Positions 30,508 through 38,555 of a DNA stretch of 64,000 nucleotides are shown here, piece by piece. How positions within the stretch are numbered: the stretch's first letter is position 1; every line of letters starts with the position of its first letter. The DNA is from Caldilineaceae bacterium (GTDB taxonomy: Bacteria; Chloroflexota; Anaerolineae; Caldilineales; Caldilineaceae), in assembly GCA_022823185.1 (NCBI GenBank), contig JAJDXQ010000006.1, forward strand, positions 1 through 64,000. The letters run 5' to 3'. The translations under genes and the position numbers were made by a program. A model generated the notes under the pieces. That model saw only the letters and a list, made by a program, of their open reading frames with translations, was not told the origin of the DNA and did no database searches.

Positions 30508-31959
30508 TCAGGCGATGAACTCGCTGAAGACGCGGTCCCCCACGAGCAGCCCTCTGGAGGTCAAACGCACTCGTTCCCCGTCCGATTCCAGCAAACCGTT
30601 ATCCTGCAATCGATCGAGAGCGGGCCCAAATGCAGCCCCCAATGGCTGTCCATGCATCGCCTCAAAACGGGAGTGCGAGACCCCCTCCTCCACCAAACGC
30701 AGTCCCAACATCATCGTTTCGCCCATCGATACCTCGGCCGGCAACGCCTCCTGAAAATCAACGGGACTCTCCCCCTTCTCAACGCGCCGGATGTAGCTCT
30801 GTACACCCTTGCGATTGGCCCATCGGATGGCGGCCGCCGGCGAATCCGCTTCCTCGCCTTCCTGGCTGACGCCGCCGGACAGGAATGAAAGGCCCTGCAT
30901 GGTCTCGTCTCGCAACGAAACAGGGCAGCGCATATGACTGTGCGCCCCAGGTCCAACGCCGATCCACTCCTGATTGCGCCAGTACAGGAGATTGTGTCGG
31001 CAGGCATATCCCGCGCCCCGTGACCAGTTGGACACCTCGTACTGGTCGTAACCCGCCGACCGCAGACCGGCCATCGCAGTCTCGTACATCTCAGCGGCTA
31101 CGTCATCGTCAGGCGCAGGCGTCTTTCCGGTCTCTACCCAGTGCGCCAAGGGCGTAGCTGGCTCGACGATCAGGCTGTACAGGCTGAGGTGCCGGGGAGC
31201 CAGCGTCAGGGCCTTTTCCAACGTGTCGGTCCAGGCCTGGACCGACTGCCCGGGCAGTCCAAACATGAAATCCAGATTGATGTTGGCAAAGCCCGCCCCA
31301 ACTGCCGCGTCATAGGCGCGCAGCGCCTCGTCCGCGTCGTGGATGCGCCCCAGAAACGCCAGCTCGTCCGCCTGAAAACTCTGCACGCCCATGCTCAGGC
31401 GGTTCACGCCCAAACGACGCAGCAAAGAAAACTGCCCCCGATCCTCGATCCCAGGATTGGCTTCACTGCTTACCTCAGCGTCGGCTGCCAGCGAGAAACG
31501 GTCGTGTACCAAAGACAGAATCTGCTCCAGCTGGCTCGAGCCAAGCGCTGTTGGCGTACCCCCGCCCAGAAAAACCGTATCCACCCTCCGCCCGTCGAGG
31601 CGCGTCGCCCACCAGCCCATCTCCCGGCACAGAGCCTCGGTATAGGCTTCATAGAGCGGTTCCAGCCCGGCGTACGTATTGAAGTCGCAGTAGGGACACT
31701 TCCGGGCGCAAAAGGGAATGTGGATGTAGAGCCCAAGCGGTCCCGCGCCAGATGGCGGATTCGCTGCGGCCGTCGACAGGCCGGCAACCTGACCCGCTCC
31801 GCTCCTGACCGTGACGCCGTTCACGGATTCGTGAGCCAAACCCGCGGTGGCCTTCCTCCCTGTCGCCCCCGGCGCGCCGCCGCCCTCAGAACTTGCCCCC
31901 GCCCCTTCCCGCACGAGGCCCTCTCTCTCTTTCGGAGTCAATGCAGCCAAGCCACTCAT
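30508..31959 (-). CDS. hemW: HemW-like radical SAM protein
   Basis: A 483-residue radical SAM protein of the HemN/HemW family. The [4Fe-4S] site is CARKCPYC within LGLYIHIPF; GGGTPTALGSSQLEQIL, SMGVQSFQADELAFLGRIH and DFMFGLPGQSVQAWTDTLE follow in family order. HemW proteins are haem chaperones rather than true coproporphyrinogen oxidases; the single CxxxCxxC without the HemN-specific extra cysteine supports HemW. ATG 31959 leaves about 75 low-complexity Gly/Ala-rich residues before the conserved domain, longer than usual, so the real start may be further in. Confidence 0.85.
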   Translation of the reverse strand: MSGLAALTPKEREGLVREGAGASSEGGGAPGATGRKATAGLAHESVNGVTVRSGAGQVAGLSTAAANPPSGAGPLGLYIHIPFCARKCPYCDFNTYAGLEPLYEAYTEALCREMGWWATRLDGRRVDTVFLGGGTPTALGSSQLEQILSLVHDRFSLAADAEVSSEANPGIEDRGQFSLLRRLGVNRLSMGVQSFQADELAFLGRIHDADEALRAYDAAVGAGFANINLDFMFGLPGQSVQAWTDTLEKALTLAPRHLSLYSLIVEPATPLAHWVETGKTPAPDDDVAAEMYETAMAGLRSAGYDQYEVSNWSRGAGYACRHNLLYWRNQEWIGVGPGAHSHMRCPVSLRDETMQGLSFLSGGVSQEGEEADSPAAAIRWANRKGVQSYIRRVEKGESPVDFQEALPAEVSMGETMMLGLRLVEEGVSHSRFEAMHGQPLGAAFGPALDRLQDNGLLESDGERVRLTSRGLLVGDRVFSEFIA

Positions 31960-32046
31960 CAACCTTAATGCCTCGTTCGTTGGGCGCGCAAAGAGAAGCG
32001 GGTATCGAAAAGGGAGGACGCCTTGCCCTTCACCCCGCCTCTGCGG

Positions 32047-32775
32047 TCAGGGGTTCTCCAACCGGAACCCGTGACCGCGCACAGTTACAATGAAGTTGGA
32101 TCTCGCGTCGTGCTCGGAAAGCCGCTCCCGCAGCCGGCGCACAAGAGCGTCTATTGCCTGCTTGCTCACCCCTGCGCCGCTCGTCTCAGGCCAGACCGCC
32201 TGTACGATCTGTTCCCGAGTCATCACCCCGCCCCCCTCATGCCAGAGCGCGCTCAACAGCCGGTATTGATGCAAACTCAAAGGGGGCTCAAGCAGCGAGC
32301 CGTTCAGCCACACCTGCCGAGTCTCCTCCTCAATCCGCAATCCGGTCTCAGACTGCGCATCGTTTTCCGAAGAGTCCAGCGTCAAAGGCGTAGTCGCTTC
32401 ATCATCGACAAAGGACATTTTGAATCGCAGGGCAATCTGCACCTCGTCGCCGTCCGAAAGGCTACGCGACCCGTCGGCAATATCCACACCATTGACATGT
32501 GTCCCGTTCTTGCTGCCCAGGTCCTCAATCGAATAACCATATCCGTCCCAGAATATACGGGCGTGGTTGCGGCTCACCTGGCGGTCTGGCAGCGTAACGT
32601 GGCATTCATCGTGGCGGCCTATGATCAAGGGCGTGGTACGGCTGAGGGGCCAGCCCTGACCGGTCTGATTGCCATGGCGGAGGATCAGCATTGCCGTCTC
32701 ACGTTGTCTGTCGACGGGCCGCGCGCCCCGAGAATCTATCAAACGTTGTTCAGCGTTGTCGCCCTCTTGCGTCAT
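32047..32775 (-). CDS. FHA domain fused to an OmpR-type winged-helix DNA-binding domain
   Basis: A 242-residue protein. Residues 28-125 form a forkhead-associated domain with the phosphothreonine-binding core: [23 protein letters not shown] and [11 protein letters not shown]. Residues 140-242 are an OmpR/PhoB-type winged helix ([49 protein letters not shown]). There is no receiver domain, so control would come from phosphopeptide binding rather than Asp phosphorylation. The start ATG 32775 has AGAGGGA upstream. It is divergent from a Ser/Thr kinase gene 383 bases away, the obvious candidate partner. Confidence 0.85.
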
Positions 32776-33158
32776 TTCCGTCCCTCTTGAGACTACCTTG
32801 CAAGGACAACTATTTTTGTCGCTTGCACATTTTGCCTTCTTGTATTTATAGTGTGGTTCCTAGCACCTTGGCCTTCAATATACGACGGCAACAGAAAGCC
32901 TGAATGCCTCATGTAGCGATGTCAGGGGGGAAATTCATTATAACGAACCGAGTTTGATCCGTCAACAGATTTTCTGGAATGGGAGCGCAATCCGGCTCCG
33001 GCATGGCCCGAATCGTATCGTCCTATGCCCCAAAAACCTGTCAACCGCAGCATACCTTGTGTGTCTGAACTCCCTCCAATGCGCACAAAAAGCCGCGACC
33101 TTTCGCCCTGCATTAACGGCCCGGTTCCAACGTCCCGTCAGTCTCTCCGAGGTGTCTT
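32776..33158. promoter_or_regulatory. Divergent control region between the FHA regulator and the kinase
   Basis: AT-rich patches at 32808-32860 and 32930-32955 (TTCATTATAACG) would suit promoters in each direction; no repeat or operator can be named. No gene seen. Confidence 0.35.
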
Positions 33159-34163
33159 TTGGCCACAGTCTTAGATTCAGATTCAATCTTGCGCGGGCGC
33201 TATGAAATCGTCCGCCTGGTCGGACAGGGCGGAATGGGCGCCGTCTACCAGGCCAACGATCTGCGCCTGGACGGGCGGGTTTGCGCCATTAAGGAAATCC
33301 TGCCAGCCCTCCTGATCGACCACCGTGGTCCCGACCTGGACCTGGGCCAGACGATCGAACAGTTCTACCAGGAGGCAAGTGTCCTGGCACGGCTCGATCA
33401 TCCCAACCTTCCCAAAGTGTCCGACTACTTCTCCGTGGACGGCCGCGAGTATCTGGTCATGGACTTTATCGAAGGCCGCGACCTGCAGGAAATCGTCAAC
33501 GAAGCGCTGCGACAGAACAAGCACCTGTCGGAAGCCCAAGTGCTCCTGTGGGCGGCGCAGCTTCTGGATGCTCTGGAGTACCTGCACGGCCAGGACCCGC
33601 CCGTGCTCCACCGCGACATCAAACCGGGCAACATCAAAATCACGCCCGAAAACAGACTGAAACTGGTTGACTTCGGCCTGGTCAAAGTCTTGCAACCGGA
33701 CGACGCACGCACGGTGACAGTCGTCCAGGGACGGGGCACCGTTGCTTACACCCCTCTTGAGCAGTATGGCGGCGATACCGGTCATACCGATGTGCGCTCA
33801 GATATTTACAGCGTCGGAGCCACCCTCTATCACCTCCTGGCGGGGGCGCCGCCCCAGGATGCCAGGGAGCGATTCCTCAAGTCCGGTCTGCTGGACCCAC
33901 TGCGCCAGCTCAACCCGGCCATCTCGACGAGAACGGAACGAGCCGTCTTCCAGGCGTTAGCCATGCACCCTGACGAGCGCCCACCCAGTATCGAAGCCCT
34001 GCGCCATTCGCTTTTCGGCGTCGAAAGCGCCAGAAAAGATCCCACCACAGATCTGCTGCCGCCTCCTACGTGGAACGAAATCTTGCACAGAAACCGTATG
34101 CTGATAGGCACGACCGTTTTCCTCTTCATCATCGCCGCCTTTATCAGCATCTATGAACTTTGA
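33159..34163 (+). CDS. Tail-anchored PknB-like Ser/Thr protein kinase
   Basis: A 334-residue Hanks-type kinase. Glycine loop GQGGMG (22-27), ATP lysine Lys45 in AIKEIL, catalytic Asp153 in HRDIKPGN, magnesium Asp171 in DFGLVK, activation segment ending [12 protein letters not shown], and [14 protein letters not shown]. All catalytic residues are present, so it should be active. A single hydrophobic helix at the extreme C-terminus ([15 protein letters not shown]) anchors it with the kinase in the cytoplasm and essentially nothing outside; PASTA or sensor repeats are absent. The start is TTG 33159 with GAGG upstream. Likely target or reader: the divergent FHA-winged-helix protein. Confidence 0.9.
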
Positions 34164-34532: not shown

Positions 34533-35483
34533 TTGTTCAAGAATCTTCTCCAGGCTTTTGTCTTGAATGCACGCATTCGCAATGCGACCATCGGCGTCAT
34601 TGTGCTGCTCGTCTTGAGCGTGGTGCCGTTCTTCAATGCCCCCCCTCCCCATGTCGAATTAGCGGCCGAAGCGCTGCTGGAACAGGGACCAAAGTGGTTC
34701 ACGAACGGCCTCCTGACAACCATCCTGGTCGACCTGATCATTATCCTGATGGCCGTCTTTGCCGTATCCAGAATGAAGGAAATCCCCGGCGCCTGGCAGA
34801 ATATCGTCGAAATGCTCGTCGAAGGAATGTGGAACCTGACCCAGAGCATCGCCGGCCATGGCTCCGCCAACAGCCGCAAGTTTTTCCCCTGGGTCATCAC
34901 CATCTTCATCTTCGTTCTGGTCAGCAACTACATAGGCCTCCTGCCCGGCTTTGGCTCGATCGGCATCTACCATAGTGGCGCCGAAAGCCACGCCCAGGCC
35001 GCGCTCGACAACCAGATCGCGATGGCCGGCGCAGAAACCGTCGCCGTCGCAGCCGCAGCCGAAGAAGGCAAGCCGGTCCTTGTCCCCCTGTTTCGCAGCC
35101 CCTCCGCCGACCTGAACATGACCCTTGCCCTGGCCCTCATCTCAGTCTTCATGACCCAATTCTTCGGCGTCCAGGCATTGGGAATCCGCTATTTCACCAA
35201 GTTCTTCAAGAACCCTTTCAAAGACGGAATGGGGGCCGTGGTCGGCTTCTTCGAGCTGATCGCCGAAATCTCCAAAATAATCAGCTTCTCTTTTCGTCTC
35301 TTCGGCAATATCTTCGCCGGTGAAGTCGTTTTGCTGGTTATGGCCTTTCTCGTCACCTTTCTCCTGCCCAGTATTTTCTACGGGCTGGAGTTGTTCATCG
35401 GATTCATCCAGGCGCTTGTATTCATGTTGCTGACCTTGGCATTCTTCACCATGGCCACCGTCAGCCACGACGATCACCATTAA
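34533..35483 (+). CDS. atpB: F-type ATP synthase subunit a
   Basis: A 316-residue membrane subunit that forms the ion half-channels facing the c-ring. The start is TTG 34533, 8 bases after GGAGGA. The essential stator arginine is Arg255 in SFSFRLFGNIFAGEV, and the late helices (LFIGFIQALVFMLLTLAFF) are canonical. Between the GFGSIG and NMTLALAL helices there is a loop of about 60 residues rich in Ala, Glu and Gln (residues 145-195), longer than in E. coli. First gene of the operon atpBEFHAGDC; atpI is absent. Confidence 0.95.
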   Translation: MFKNLLQAFVLNARIRNATIGVIVLLVLSVVPFFNAPPPHVELAAEALLEQGPKWFTNGLLTTILVDLIIILMAVFAVSRMKEIPGAWQNIVEMLVEGMWNLTQSIAGHGSANSRKFFPWVITIFIFVLVSNYIGLLPGFGSIGIYHSGAESHAQAALDNQIAMAGAETVAVAAAAEEGKPVLVPLFRSPSADLNMTLALALISVFMTQFFGVQALGIRYFTKFFKNPFKDGMGAVVGFFELIAEISKIISFSFRLFGNIFAGEVVLLVMAFLVTFLLPSIFYGLELFIGFIQALVFMLLTLAFFTMATVSHDDHH

Positions 35484-35512
35484 AGCCGGTTGCCAGTGGC
35501 AGGCTGCGCTAG

Positions 35513-35812
<300 letters not shown>

Positions 35813-35926
35813 ACCTGTTCTCAGTGGCCGCAGTTCAGTCGCCCGTGACCAATGTTCACGCCCGGGGGCCAGTGCCCTGACCGACCGCGAAAAACGAGCC
35901 ACTGCAGTTAATCCAGGAGGTTGGCC

Positions 35927-36436
35927 TTGGACGCTCTCGATAAATTAGGCATCAGTTGGCAGTTACTGCTCTCGCAAATCGTCAACTTCGGACTGTTGAT
36001 GATTATTCTGCAACAGCTACTTTACAAGCCCGTTCTGAACATGCTCGAGCAGCGCAGACAGCGCATCGCCGAGGGTCTGGAGCAGGCAGATAAGGCATCG
36101 CACGCGGCCGCTGAAGCCGAAGCGGAAAAACAGGCCATCCTCGAAGAGGCCCGCCGCGAAGCCCAGGAAGTGCGCGCCCAGGCAACCCGCGATGCCGAAC
36201 GCATCGCGCAAGACGTACGCAGCCGCGCCGACCAGGAAGCCCAGGATATCCGCATGAAGGCCCAGGCCGACGCCGAAGCGCAAACCGCCGCCGTCATGGC
36301 CGACGCCAGAAAACAGATCGCAGACCTGGCCATCGCCGCCACCGAGCAAATCCTCGGAAGAGAACTGGCAAACAAAGATGAACAGGAACGCTTTGTCGCC
36401 GATTACCTGGCACAGCAAAACGGGAGCGGTTCATGA
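35927..36436 (+). CDS. atpF: F-type ATP synthase subunit b
   Basis: A 169-residue peripheral-stalk subunit. TTG 35927 is favoured over TTG 35921, which would abut the AGGAGG ribosome site; the later codon has 6-base spacing. One N-terminal membrane helix ([19 protein letters not shown]) is followed by a long charged helix ([19 protein letters not shown] onward) that dimerises and reaches F1. The C-terminal [16 protein letters not shown] is the delta-binding motif. Its TGA overlaps the ATG of atpH. Confidence 0.93.
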
Positions 36437-36930
36437 GCGAGCGCGCAACGGCCGAACGATATGCCCAGGCCATCCTTGAGGCGATCGTAGAGCAGTGGCA
36501 AACGACACTCTCCCAGGTCGCCGACGCTCTTGTGCAGGACCCTAAACTGGGCGCCAATGTCGATTCCATCCAAAACGCGATTCCCGACGACGCCCCGCCC
36601 GAACTGCAGAATTTCGTCAAAATGCTCGCGCAAGAAGGGGATGCAGCCCTTCTCCCTCGCGTCATCGCCGCACTGGGCGCAAGCCTCCGCGGCGAAACCG
36701 GGCCGCAGGAAGCCGACATAACAAGCGCCATCGAGTTGGGTGACGAAGCCCAAGAGCAGATTCGCCAGCGGCTCACCCAACAGTACGGGGAAGGCCTCGT
36801 CTTCAGCTTCGACGTAGACCCCTCCCTGATGGGCGGCCTTCGCATCCGCGTCGGAGACCAGCTAATCGACAACACCGTCGCAAATCGGCTCATGGCCTTG
36901 CGCGAAATGGTCGCAGCTTCCGTACGGTAA
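36433..36930 (+). CDS. atpH: F-type ATP synthase subunit delta
   Basis: A 165-residue stator subunit joining the b dimer to the top of the alpha3-beta3 head. It begins ATG 36433, overlapping the atpF stop by four bases (ATGA). The N-terminal helical domain starts [19 protein letters not shown]; the C-terminal domain has [26 protein letters not shown], the most conserved delta signature. The middle is divergent, as usual. Confidence 0.93.
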
Positions 36931-37025
36931 TCTTGGATTTGGCAATCAGTTTCGGATCCTGACTTTCCGTGACAGCGCACCGCCAGGAACCCAGAACTGG
37001 TAACCTACAATAAAGGACAGCGCAT

Positions 37026-38555
37026 ATGGCAGTTCAGACAGAAGAACTGACCCAGGAATTTACCGACCGGCTCAAACAGCAGATCCTCAGCTTCCAGCCG
37101 GCCCCCAGCCGCGTTGACGTCGGCGAAGTCGTCGAAGTCGGTGATGGCATCGCCATCATCTCCGGCCTCCAGGGGGTCATGGCCAGCGAGCTGGTCGAGT
37201 TCACCAAGACCGGCGTGCTCGGCATCGCCCAGAACCTGAACGACGATTCCGTCGGTATCATTATCATGGGCGAATACACCGATATCGAAGAGGGCGACCT
37301 GGTGAGCAGCACCGGCCGCCTGGCTTCCGTCCCCGTCGGAGACCCACTGATCGGCCGCGTCGTCAATGCCGTCGGTCAGCCGCTGGATGGCAAGGGCCCA
37401 ATCGACTCAAACGCAACCCGTCCCGTTGAGCGGATCGCCCCTGGCGTCGTGCTGCGAAAGGGTGTCGACACCCCCGTCGAAACCGGCGTCACCGTCGTTG
37501 ACGCGCTCATCCCCATCGGCCGCGGCCAGCGAGAACTGATCATCGGCGACCGCCAGACTGGCAAAACCGCCCTCGCCATCGACACGATTATCAACCAGAA
37601 GGGCAAAGACCTGATCTGCATCTACGTCGCCATCGGTCAGAAGCAGTCAACCGTGGCGCAGGTCGTCGGTACTTTGGAGAATCACGGCGCCATGGATCAC
37701 ACGATCGTTGTGACCGCCTCCGCCGCAGACCCGGCCGCCCTGCAGTTCCTGGCGCCCTACGCCGGTTGCGCAATGGGCGAAGAGTTCATGGAGCAGGGCC
37801 GCGACGCCCTGATCGTCTACGACGATCTCTCCAAACATGCCCAGGCCTACCGCCAGGTTTCACTGCTGCTGCGGCGCCCGCCCGGCCGCGAGGCCTATCC
37901 CGGCGATGTCTTCTATCTGCACAGCCGTCTGCTGGAACGGGCTGCCCGCCTCGACGAGGAGTTCGGCGGCGGCAGCCTGACCGCACTGCCGGTCATCGAA
38001 ACCCAGGCCGGCGACGTCTCGGCATACATTCCCACCAACGTCATTTCCATCACCGACGGCCAGATCTTCCTGGAAAGCGACCTGTTTTATGCCGGCATTC
38101 GGCCCGCCATGAACGTCGGCCTTTCCGTCAGCCGCGTAGGCAGTTCCGCACAGACCAGAGCGATGAAAGACGTTGCCGGCCGCCTGAAACTGGAATTCAG
38201 CCAGTTCCGCGAACTGGCCGCCTTCGCTCAGTTCGGCTCCGACCTGGACGCAGCAACACAGCGCCAGCTCAACCGCGGCCAGCGCATTCAGGAAACGCTC
38301 AAACAACCCCAGTACGAGCCCCTGCAGCTGGACAAGCAGGTGATGAGCCTCTTCGCAGTCACGAACGGCTATGTCGACGAAGTTGATGTCACTGATGTGA
38401 AGCGTTGGGAACTGGAGATGCACGCCTACATGGATGCCAACCATCCCGAAATCGGGCAGACCATCCTGCGATCCCAGGACCTGCCTGACGAGTCGCTCGA
38501 TTCCCTGCGCCTGGCCCTCGAGACCTTCAACAGCACCTGGACGGGGTCTGAATAG
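37026..38555 (+). CDS. atpA: F-type ATP synthase subunit alpha
   Basis: A 509-residue non-catalytic nucleotide-binding subunit of F1. The P-loop is GDRQTGKT (174-181); [20 protein letters not shown] and the [17 protein letters not shown] signature containing the arginine finger region are intact. Length and domain order (N-terminal beta barrel, nucleotide-binding domain, C-terminal helices ending near TFNSTWTG) are normal. AAAGGA precedes ATG 37026 after a 95-base spacer. Confidence 0.97.

Follow-up and report, generated by a model that had tools for sequence, protein, structure and literature searches.

A divergently encoded Ser/Thr kinase and FHA-winged-helix regulator in Chloroflexota as a candidate phosphothreonine transcription switch

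In a 64,000-nucleotide stretch of a Caldilineaceae genome (the start of contig JAJDXQ010000006.1; hereafter, the window), a Ser/Thr protein kinase is encoded back to back with a transcription regulator that carries an FHA domain ahead of a winged helix. The nearest named relatives of the contig are Caldilineaceae MAGs of the Chloroflexota (76-98% identity), and the source genome is 99% complete. The neighbourhood of kinase and regulator goes beyond chance, because both the adjacency and the co-occurrence of the two genes are conserved across the class. On the basis of sequence comparison, we moderately favour the view that they form a dedicated kinase-reader pair acting as a phosphothreonine transcription switch, in which Thr128, an invariant threonine in the linker of the regulator, is probably the switch residue. 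A previous interpretation of the window from its letters (the sequence-only reading) had proposed such a switch. Its expectation that the pair would be conserved is borne out, but it overlooked the invariant Thr128 beside the FHA domain, as well as another, sensor-bearing version of the pair that this genome contains.

Architecture of the two proteins and their locus

Both open reading frames lie exactly where the sequence-only reading had placed them (Table 1). A Pfam search of the kinase returned one complete catalytic domain (Pkinase, residues 15-286, E 1e-38). The catalytic Lys, the HRD Asp and the DFG Asp are invariant across 25 divergent orthologues, as is characteristic of Hanks-type kinases, and it is from these intact catalytic residues that we infer an active enzyme. 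T185 and T187 of the activation loop are both invariant in the aligned orthologues, and the T185-V-T187 motif is similar to the T-x-T that is phosphorylated in PknB. The C-terminus is a 23-residue hydrophobic stretch, and a hydrophobic C-terminal segment is present in 59 of the 63 adjacent kinases of clade I, the window's type. The protein stops a few residues past this membrane segment, and Pfam shows no further domain, neither PASTA nor a PknH-type extracellular sensor such as PknH/PknB-type receptors possess. The earlier description of a sensorless, tail-anchored kinase thus holds. The TTG start is preceded by a genus-conserved Shine-Dalgarno sequence, AGAGGTG.

Pfam recognised only two domains in the regulator, FHA (residues 51-114, E 8e-21) and Trans_reg_C (residues 166-239, E 9e-16), the latter an OmpR/PhoB-type winged helix, in agreement with the earlier claim that the FHA domain is its only regulatory domain. 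No receiver domain was detected by Pfam, and the FHA domain occupies the receiver position. The residues of the phosphothreonine-contacting FHA signature (G53, R54, S68, R69, H71, N90, G91 and N95) are present in 33/33 representatives. The predicted FHA fold resembles the FHA structures 3poa, GarA, OdhI and DgcB, with the DgcB complex 6hc1 and MDC1 (3uot and 3unn) as further entries in the fold comparison; GarA and OdhI are the best PDB matches by sequence and near the top by fold. Across divergent regulators, the recognition-helix region of the winged helix is near-invariant and the N-terminus is poorly conserved.

Table 1. Features of the kinase-regulator locus (window positions)
Feature	Position	Strand	Basis
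FHA-winged-helix regulator, 242 aa	32047..32775	-	Pfam domains; orthologues found in most genomes of the class
OmpR/PhoB-type winged-helix DNA-binding domain (Trans_reg_C, residues 166-239)	32059..32280	-	Pfam
Linker residues 127-142, predicted disordered (pLDDT below 50)	32350..32397	-	AlphaFold2
Thr128 codon, invariant; candidate phosphorylation site and FHA ligand	32392..32394	-	Alignments
FHA domain with all phosphothreonine-contact residues (G53 R54 ... S68 R69 H71 ... N90 ... N95)	32434..32625	-	Pfam, alignment, fold match
Intergenic region between both start codons, 383 bp	32776..33158	.	ORF coordinates
Predicted kinase promoter TGCACA-17-TATAGT, conserved blocks in genus	32824..32852	+	Promoter prediction, alignment
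Predicted regulator promoter TTGACG-17-TATAAT, genus-conserved	32937..32965	-	Promoter prediction, alignment
Hanks-type Ser/Thr protein kinase, 334 aa, TTG start	33159..34163	+	Pfam; genus-conserved Shine-Dalgarno
Kinase catalytic domain	33201..34016	+	Pfam
Activation-loop T185-V-T187; candidate autophosphorylation and FHA docking site	33711..33719	+	Alignment
C-terminal transmembrane tail anchor (approximate limits)	34098..34154	+	Orthologue comparison

In the window's genus the promoters predicted for the two genes are convergent, with overlapping transcripts. A class-wide operator was sought between the genes by spaced-word enrichment, which recovered only a near-consensus promoter of the TTGACA-17-TATAAT type, mostly kinase-facing and matched at 10 or more of 12 positions in 25 of 59 loci by our own count; no regulator binding site can therefore be named. 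An inverted repeat, TGCAAG-N-CTTGCA, lies at about 32800-32830, at the -35 region of the predicted kinase promoter. It is found in most, not all, genomes of the genus and is possibly an operator or an RNA hairpin. One member of the genus (G004, loci L022/L054) has about 4.5 kb of extra sequence between the divergent genes. Downstream of the regulator and on the same strand, a HemW-like gene (30508-31962) adjoins it, but hemW occupies this place in 30/93 clade I loci and in 0 of clade II, and was ruled out as a defining partner. Some 370 bp past the kinase begin ATP synthase genes (34533-38555, plus strand), and atpB lies 3' of the kinase in further Caldilineaceae genomes too.

Conservation, co-inheritance and a second pair

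A profile built from 25 divergent regulators matched 208 of the 248 class genomes and 51 of the 201 that were sampled across the phylum. The profile score divided the regulators into clade I and clade II, a division with which the tree later agreed. For clade I we sampled 86 loci with flanks from 38 Chloroflexota families, 37 of them in the window's class. An orthologous kinase was found within 2 kb in divergent orientation in 59 loci and co-directionally in 4, whereas in the remainder the kinase was elsewhere in the genome (11), no orthologue was present (9) or a contig edge cut off the locus (3); the genes are apart in about a quarter of the sampled loci. The sequence-only reading had staked its proposal on conservation of the pair, and with the divergent arrangement seen in 29 of the 38 families this conservation is strong. 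Both clade I genes occur in 169 of the 248 class genomes, the regulator alone in 25, the kinase alone in 8 and neither in 46 (Fisher p about 1e-23, with kinship among the genomes ignored).

Of 28 clade II loci, which extend to other lineages of the phylum, 22 carry a divergent pair. The regulator tree (support 0.96) and the tree of adjacent kinases (0.99) show an identical clade split, with 63/63 and 21/21 pairs assigned alike; no kinase adjoins one outlier regulator (L160). Since regulators and adjacent kinases split into matching clades, the pairs appear to be inherited as units, and the two clades look like the product of an old duplication of the whole pair, with no exchange of partners between them.

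The source genome contains two such pairs. Its FHA domains, at E 1e-5, number only two, both in FHA-winged-helix regulators, and each of these regulators is divergent from one of the three complete Pkinase-family kinases found in the genome. The second pair (G000:C7:62826-64917; locus L073:2738-7998) consists of an FHA-winged-helix regulator and, divergent from it, a membrane kinase of 683 aa that has, besides its membrane segment, a C-terminal extracytoplasmic-type region of about 230 residues. Most clade II kinases extend 140-540 residues beyond the membrane segment; in most of clade I the protein ends soon after it. An ECF-type sigma factor gene lies directly 3' of the second regulator. A dedicated neighbouring phosphatase was ruled out: the genome's only PP2C_2 match sits in another cluster (L178, G000:C23), followed by a kinase-like gene of its own with overlapping ends. 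Other members of the class, such as G055, G038 and G047, are rich in FHA domains and kinases, G055 having 41 FHA and 29 kinase matches.

The linker threonine and a possible mechanism

AlphaFold2 modelled the FHA domain of the regulator with high confidence and residues 127-142 with pLDDT <50, a value that may also stem from the shallow alignment (19 sequences). A short linker with many gaps follows the FHA domain, and Thr128 is the exception to its poor conservation. Position 128 is Thr in 93/93 clade I and 27/27 alignable clade II regulators, a set containing a few duplicate genomes, and among representatives it is Thr in 72/72 at a 70% identity cut-off, 46/46 at 60% and 22/22 at 50%. In the neighbouring linker columns the entropy ranges from about 1 to 3.8 bits. 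The context is F-V-D-A-G-A-T-A-P-L in clade I and F-x-D-P-x-A-T in clade II; clade II does not retain the +3 Leu of clade I. At position 128 itself Ser never occurs, as expected of an FHA ligand. A general feature of FHA tails was rejected as the main cause, a similar A-T following the FHA domain in only 2 of 15 control FHA proteins of the same class that have no winged helix. An invariant threonine in a predicted-disordered stretch beside a phosphothreonine reader has the look of a built-in FHA ligand. Genomes without an orthologous kinase retain Thr128 too, and there its phosphorylation would fall to a different kinase.

In the mechanism that we propose, the kinase would autophosphorylate at T185/T187, the FHA domain would dock on the phosphorylated loop, and the kinase would then phosphorylate Thr128. 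The pThr128 would be bound by an FHA domain, probably in trans between two regulators; from general fold geometry, the position of Thr128 about five residues past the last FHA strand favours such binding. Contact in trans would produce a head-to-tail dimer and place two winged helices on the DNA, the alternative outcome being an autoinhibited closed form. Lacking an outside sensor, the kinase probably takes its input from the cytoplasm, the state of the membrane or a partner protein. The FHA domains of GarA and OdhI bind phosphothreonines of their own proteins, and MDC1 (3uot, 3unn) is a further precedent. Phosphorylation of EmbR by PknH requires the FHA domain of EmbR (PMC4601284), and in DgcB the FHA domain binds Thr14, a conserved residue of the protein's own tail (PMC6733907).

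Thr128 may have a structural role, and a different reading, which we regard as rather unlikely, includes such a role: the FHA domain would serve only to recruit the regulator to the phosphorylated kinase, the phosphosite would be in the winged helix or the N-terminus, and Thr128 would cap the end of the FHA domain. The requirement for the EmbR FHA domain, with mapped sites in EmbR that are uncertain (PMC4601284), and the invariance of T185/T187 are consistent with recruitment of this kind, but a residue in a predicted-disordered stretch that never changes to Ser, and an N-terminus that is poorly conserved, argue against it. It is also unlikely that the FHA domain holds pThr128 in cis, as in GarA and OdhI, turning the regulator off or freeing it from a target. 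These two proteins, among the closest solved FHA domains in sequence and fold, do close on their own pThr, but their threonine is in a long N-terminal tail, whereas Thr128, so near the last strand, would have little reach to the binding loops. Closure in cis is a sub-variant of the switch we favour, with Thr128 still the switch and only the geometry changed. It is very improbable that the two genes are functionally unrelated neighbours, with the kinase acting on other proteins and the regulator reading other phosphoproteins: loci with a distant or missing kinase (11 and 9 of 86) would fit, but adjacency over 29 families, co-occurrence, the identical clade split and the fact that the genome's sole other FHA protein is a paralogue all speak against it.

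Relation to known systems

The closest known system is PknH-EmbR of Mycobacterium tuberculosis, which likewise combines a membrane Ser/Thr kinase with an OmpR-type winged-helix regulator bearing an FHA domain, and from which the idea of such a kinase-regulator couple is already known (PMC4601284). EmbR, of the SARP family, has the order winged helix-BTAD-FHA, whereas in the regulator described here the FHA domain precedes the winged helix, Pfam gives no BTAD and an invariant threonine marks the linker; PknH has an extracellular sensor domain and the present kinase has none. These differences in domain order, BTAD, sensor and linker Thr set the family apart from PknH-EmbR. What is new here, from the alignments and the model, is the invariant Thr128 just after the FHA domain in a predicted-disordered linker. 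Bdellovibrio DgcB also has its FHA domain ahead of an output domain and a conserved disordered-tail Thr bound by the FHA cleft (PMC6733907), but the output is a diguanylate cyclase and the Thr is in the N-terminal tail. GarA and OdhI have a very similar FHA domain, are phosphorylated by Ser/Thr kinases and bind their own pThr; they consist of the FHA domain and an N-terminal tail with the Thr, without a DNA-binding domain, whereas the regulator has a winged helix and its Thr is C-terminal to the FHA domain. A literature search on FHA regulators of Chloroflexi/Anaerolineae, within the library covered, found nothing specific to these proteins.

With OmpR/PhoB response regulators the family shares a C-terminal winged helix of the same family and dedicated pairs that are inherited together. 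The N-terminal receiver with its phosphoacceptor Asp is absent, an FHA domain standing in for it and a Ser/Thr kinase for the histidine kinase. Bacterial Ser/Thr kinases are usually viewed as few and promiscuous, while histidine kinases have dedicated regulators. Here, a class of bacteria apparently retains Ser/Thr kinases in stable one-to-one partnership with transcription regulators, and in the source genome no FHA domain was found outside the two kinase-regulator pairs. With the invariant Thr128 as target, a single peptide and a single point mutant suffice to test the mechanism. Tentatively, these pairs may represent a Chloroflexota-wide architecture parallel to two-component systems, co-inherited and duplicated as pairs, in which an FHA domain and an invariant linker phosphothreonine would replace the receiver and its Asp, and phosphorylation would lead to reciprocal FHA-pThr dimerisation.
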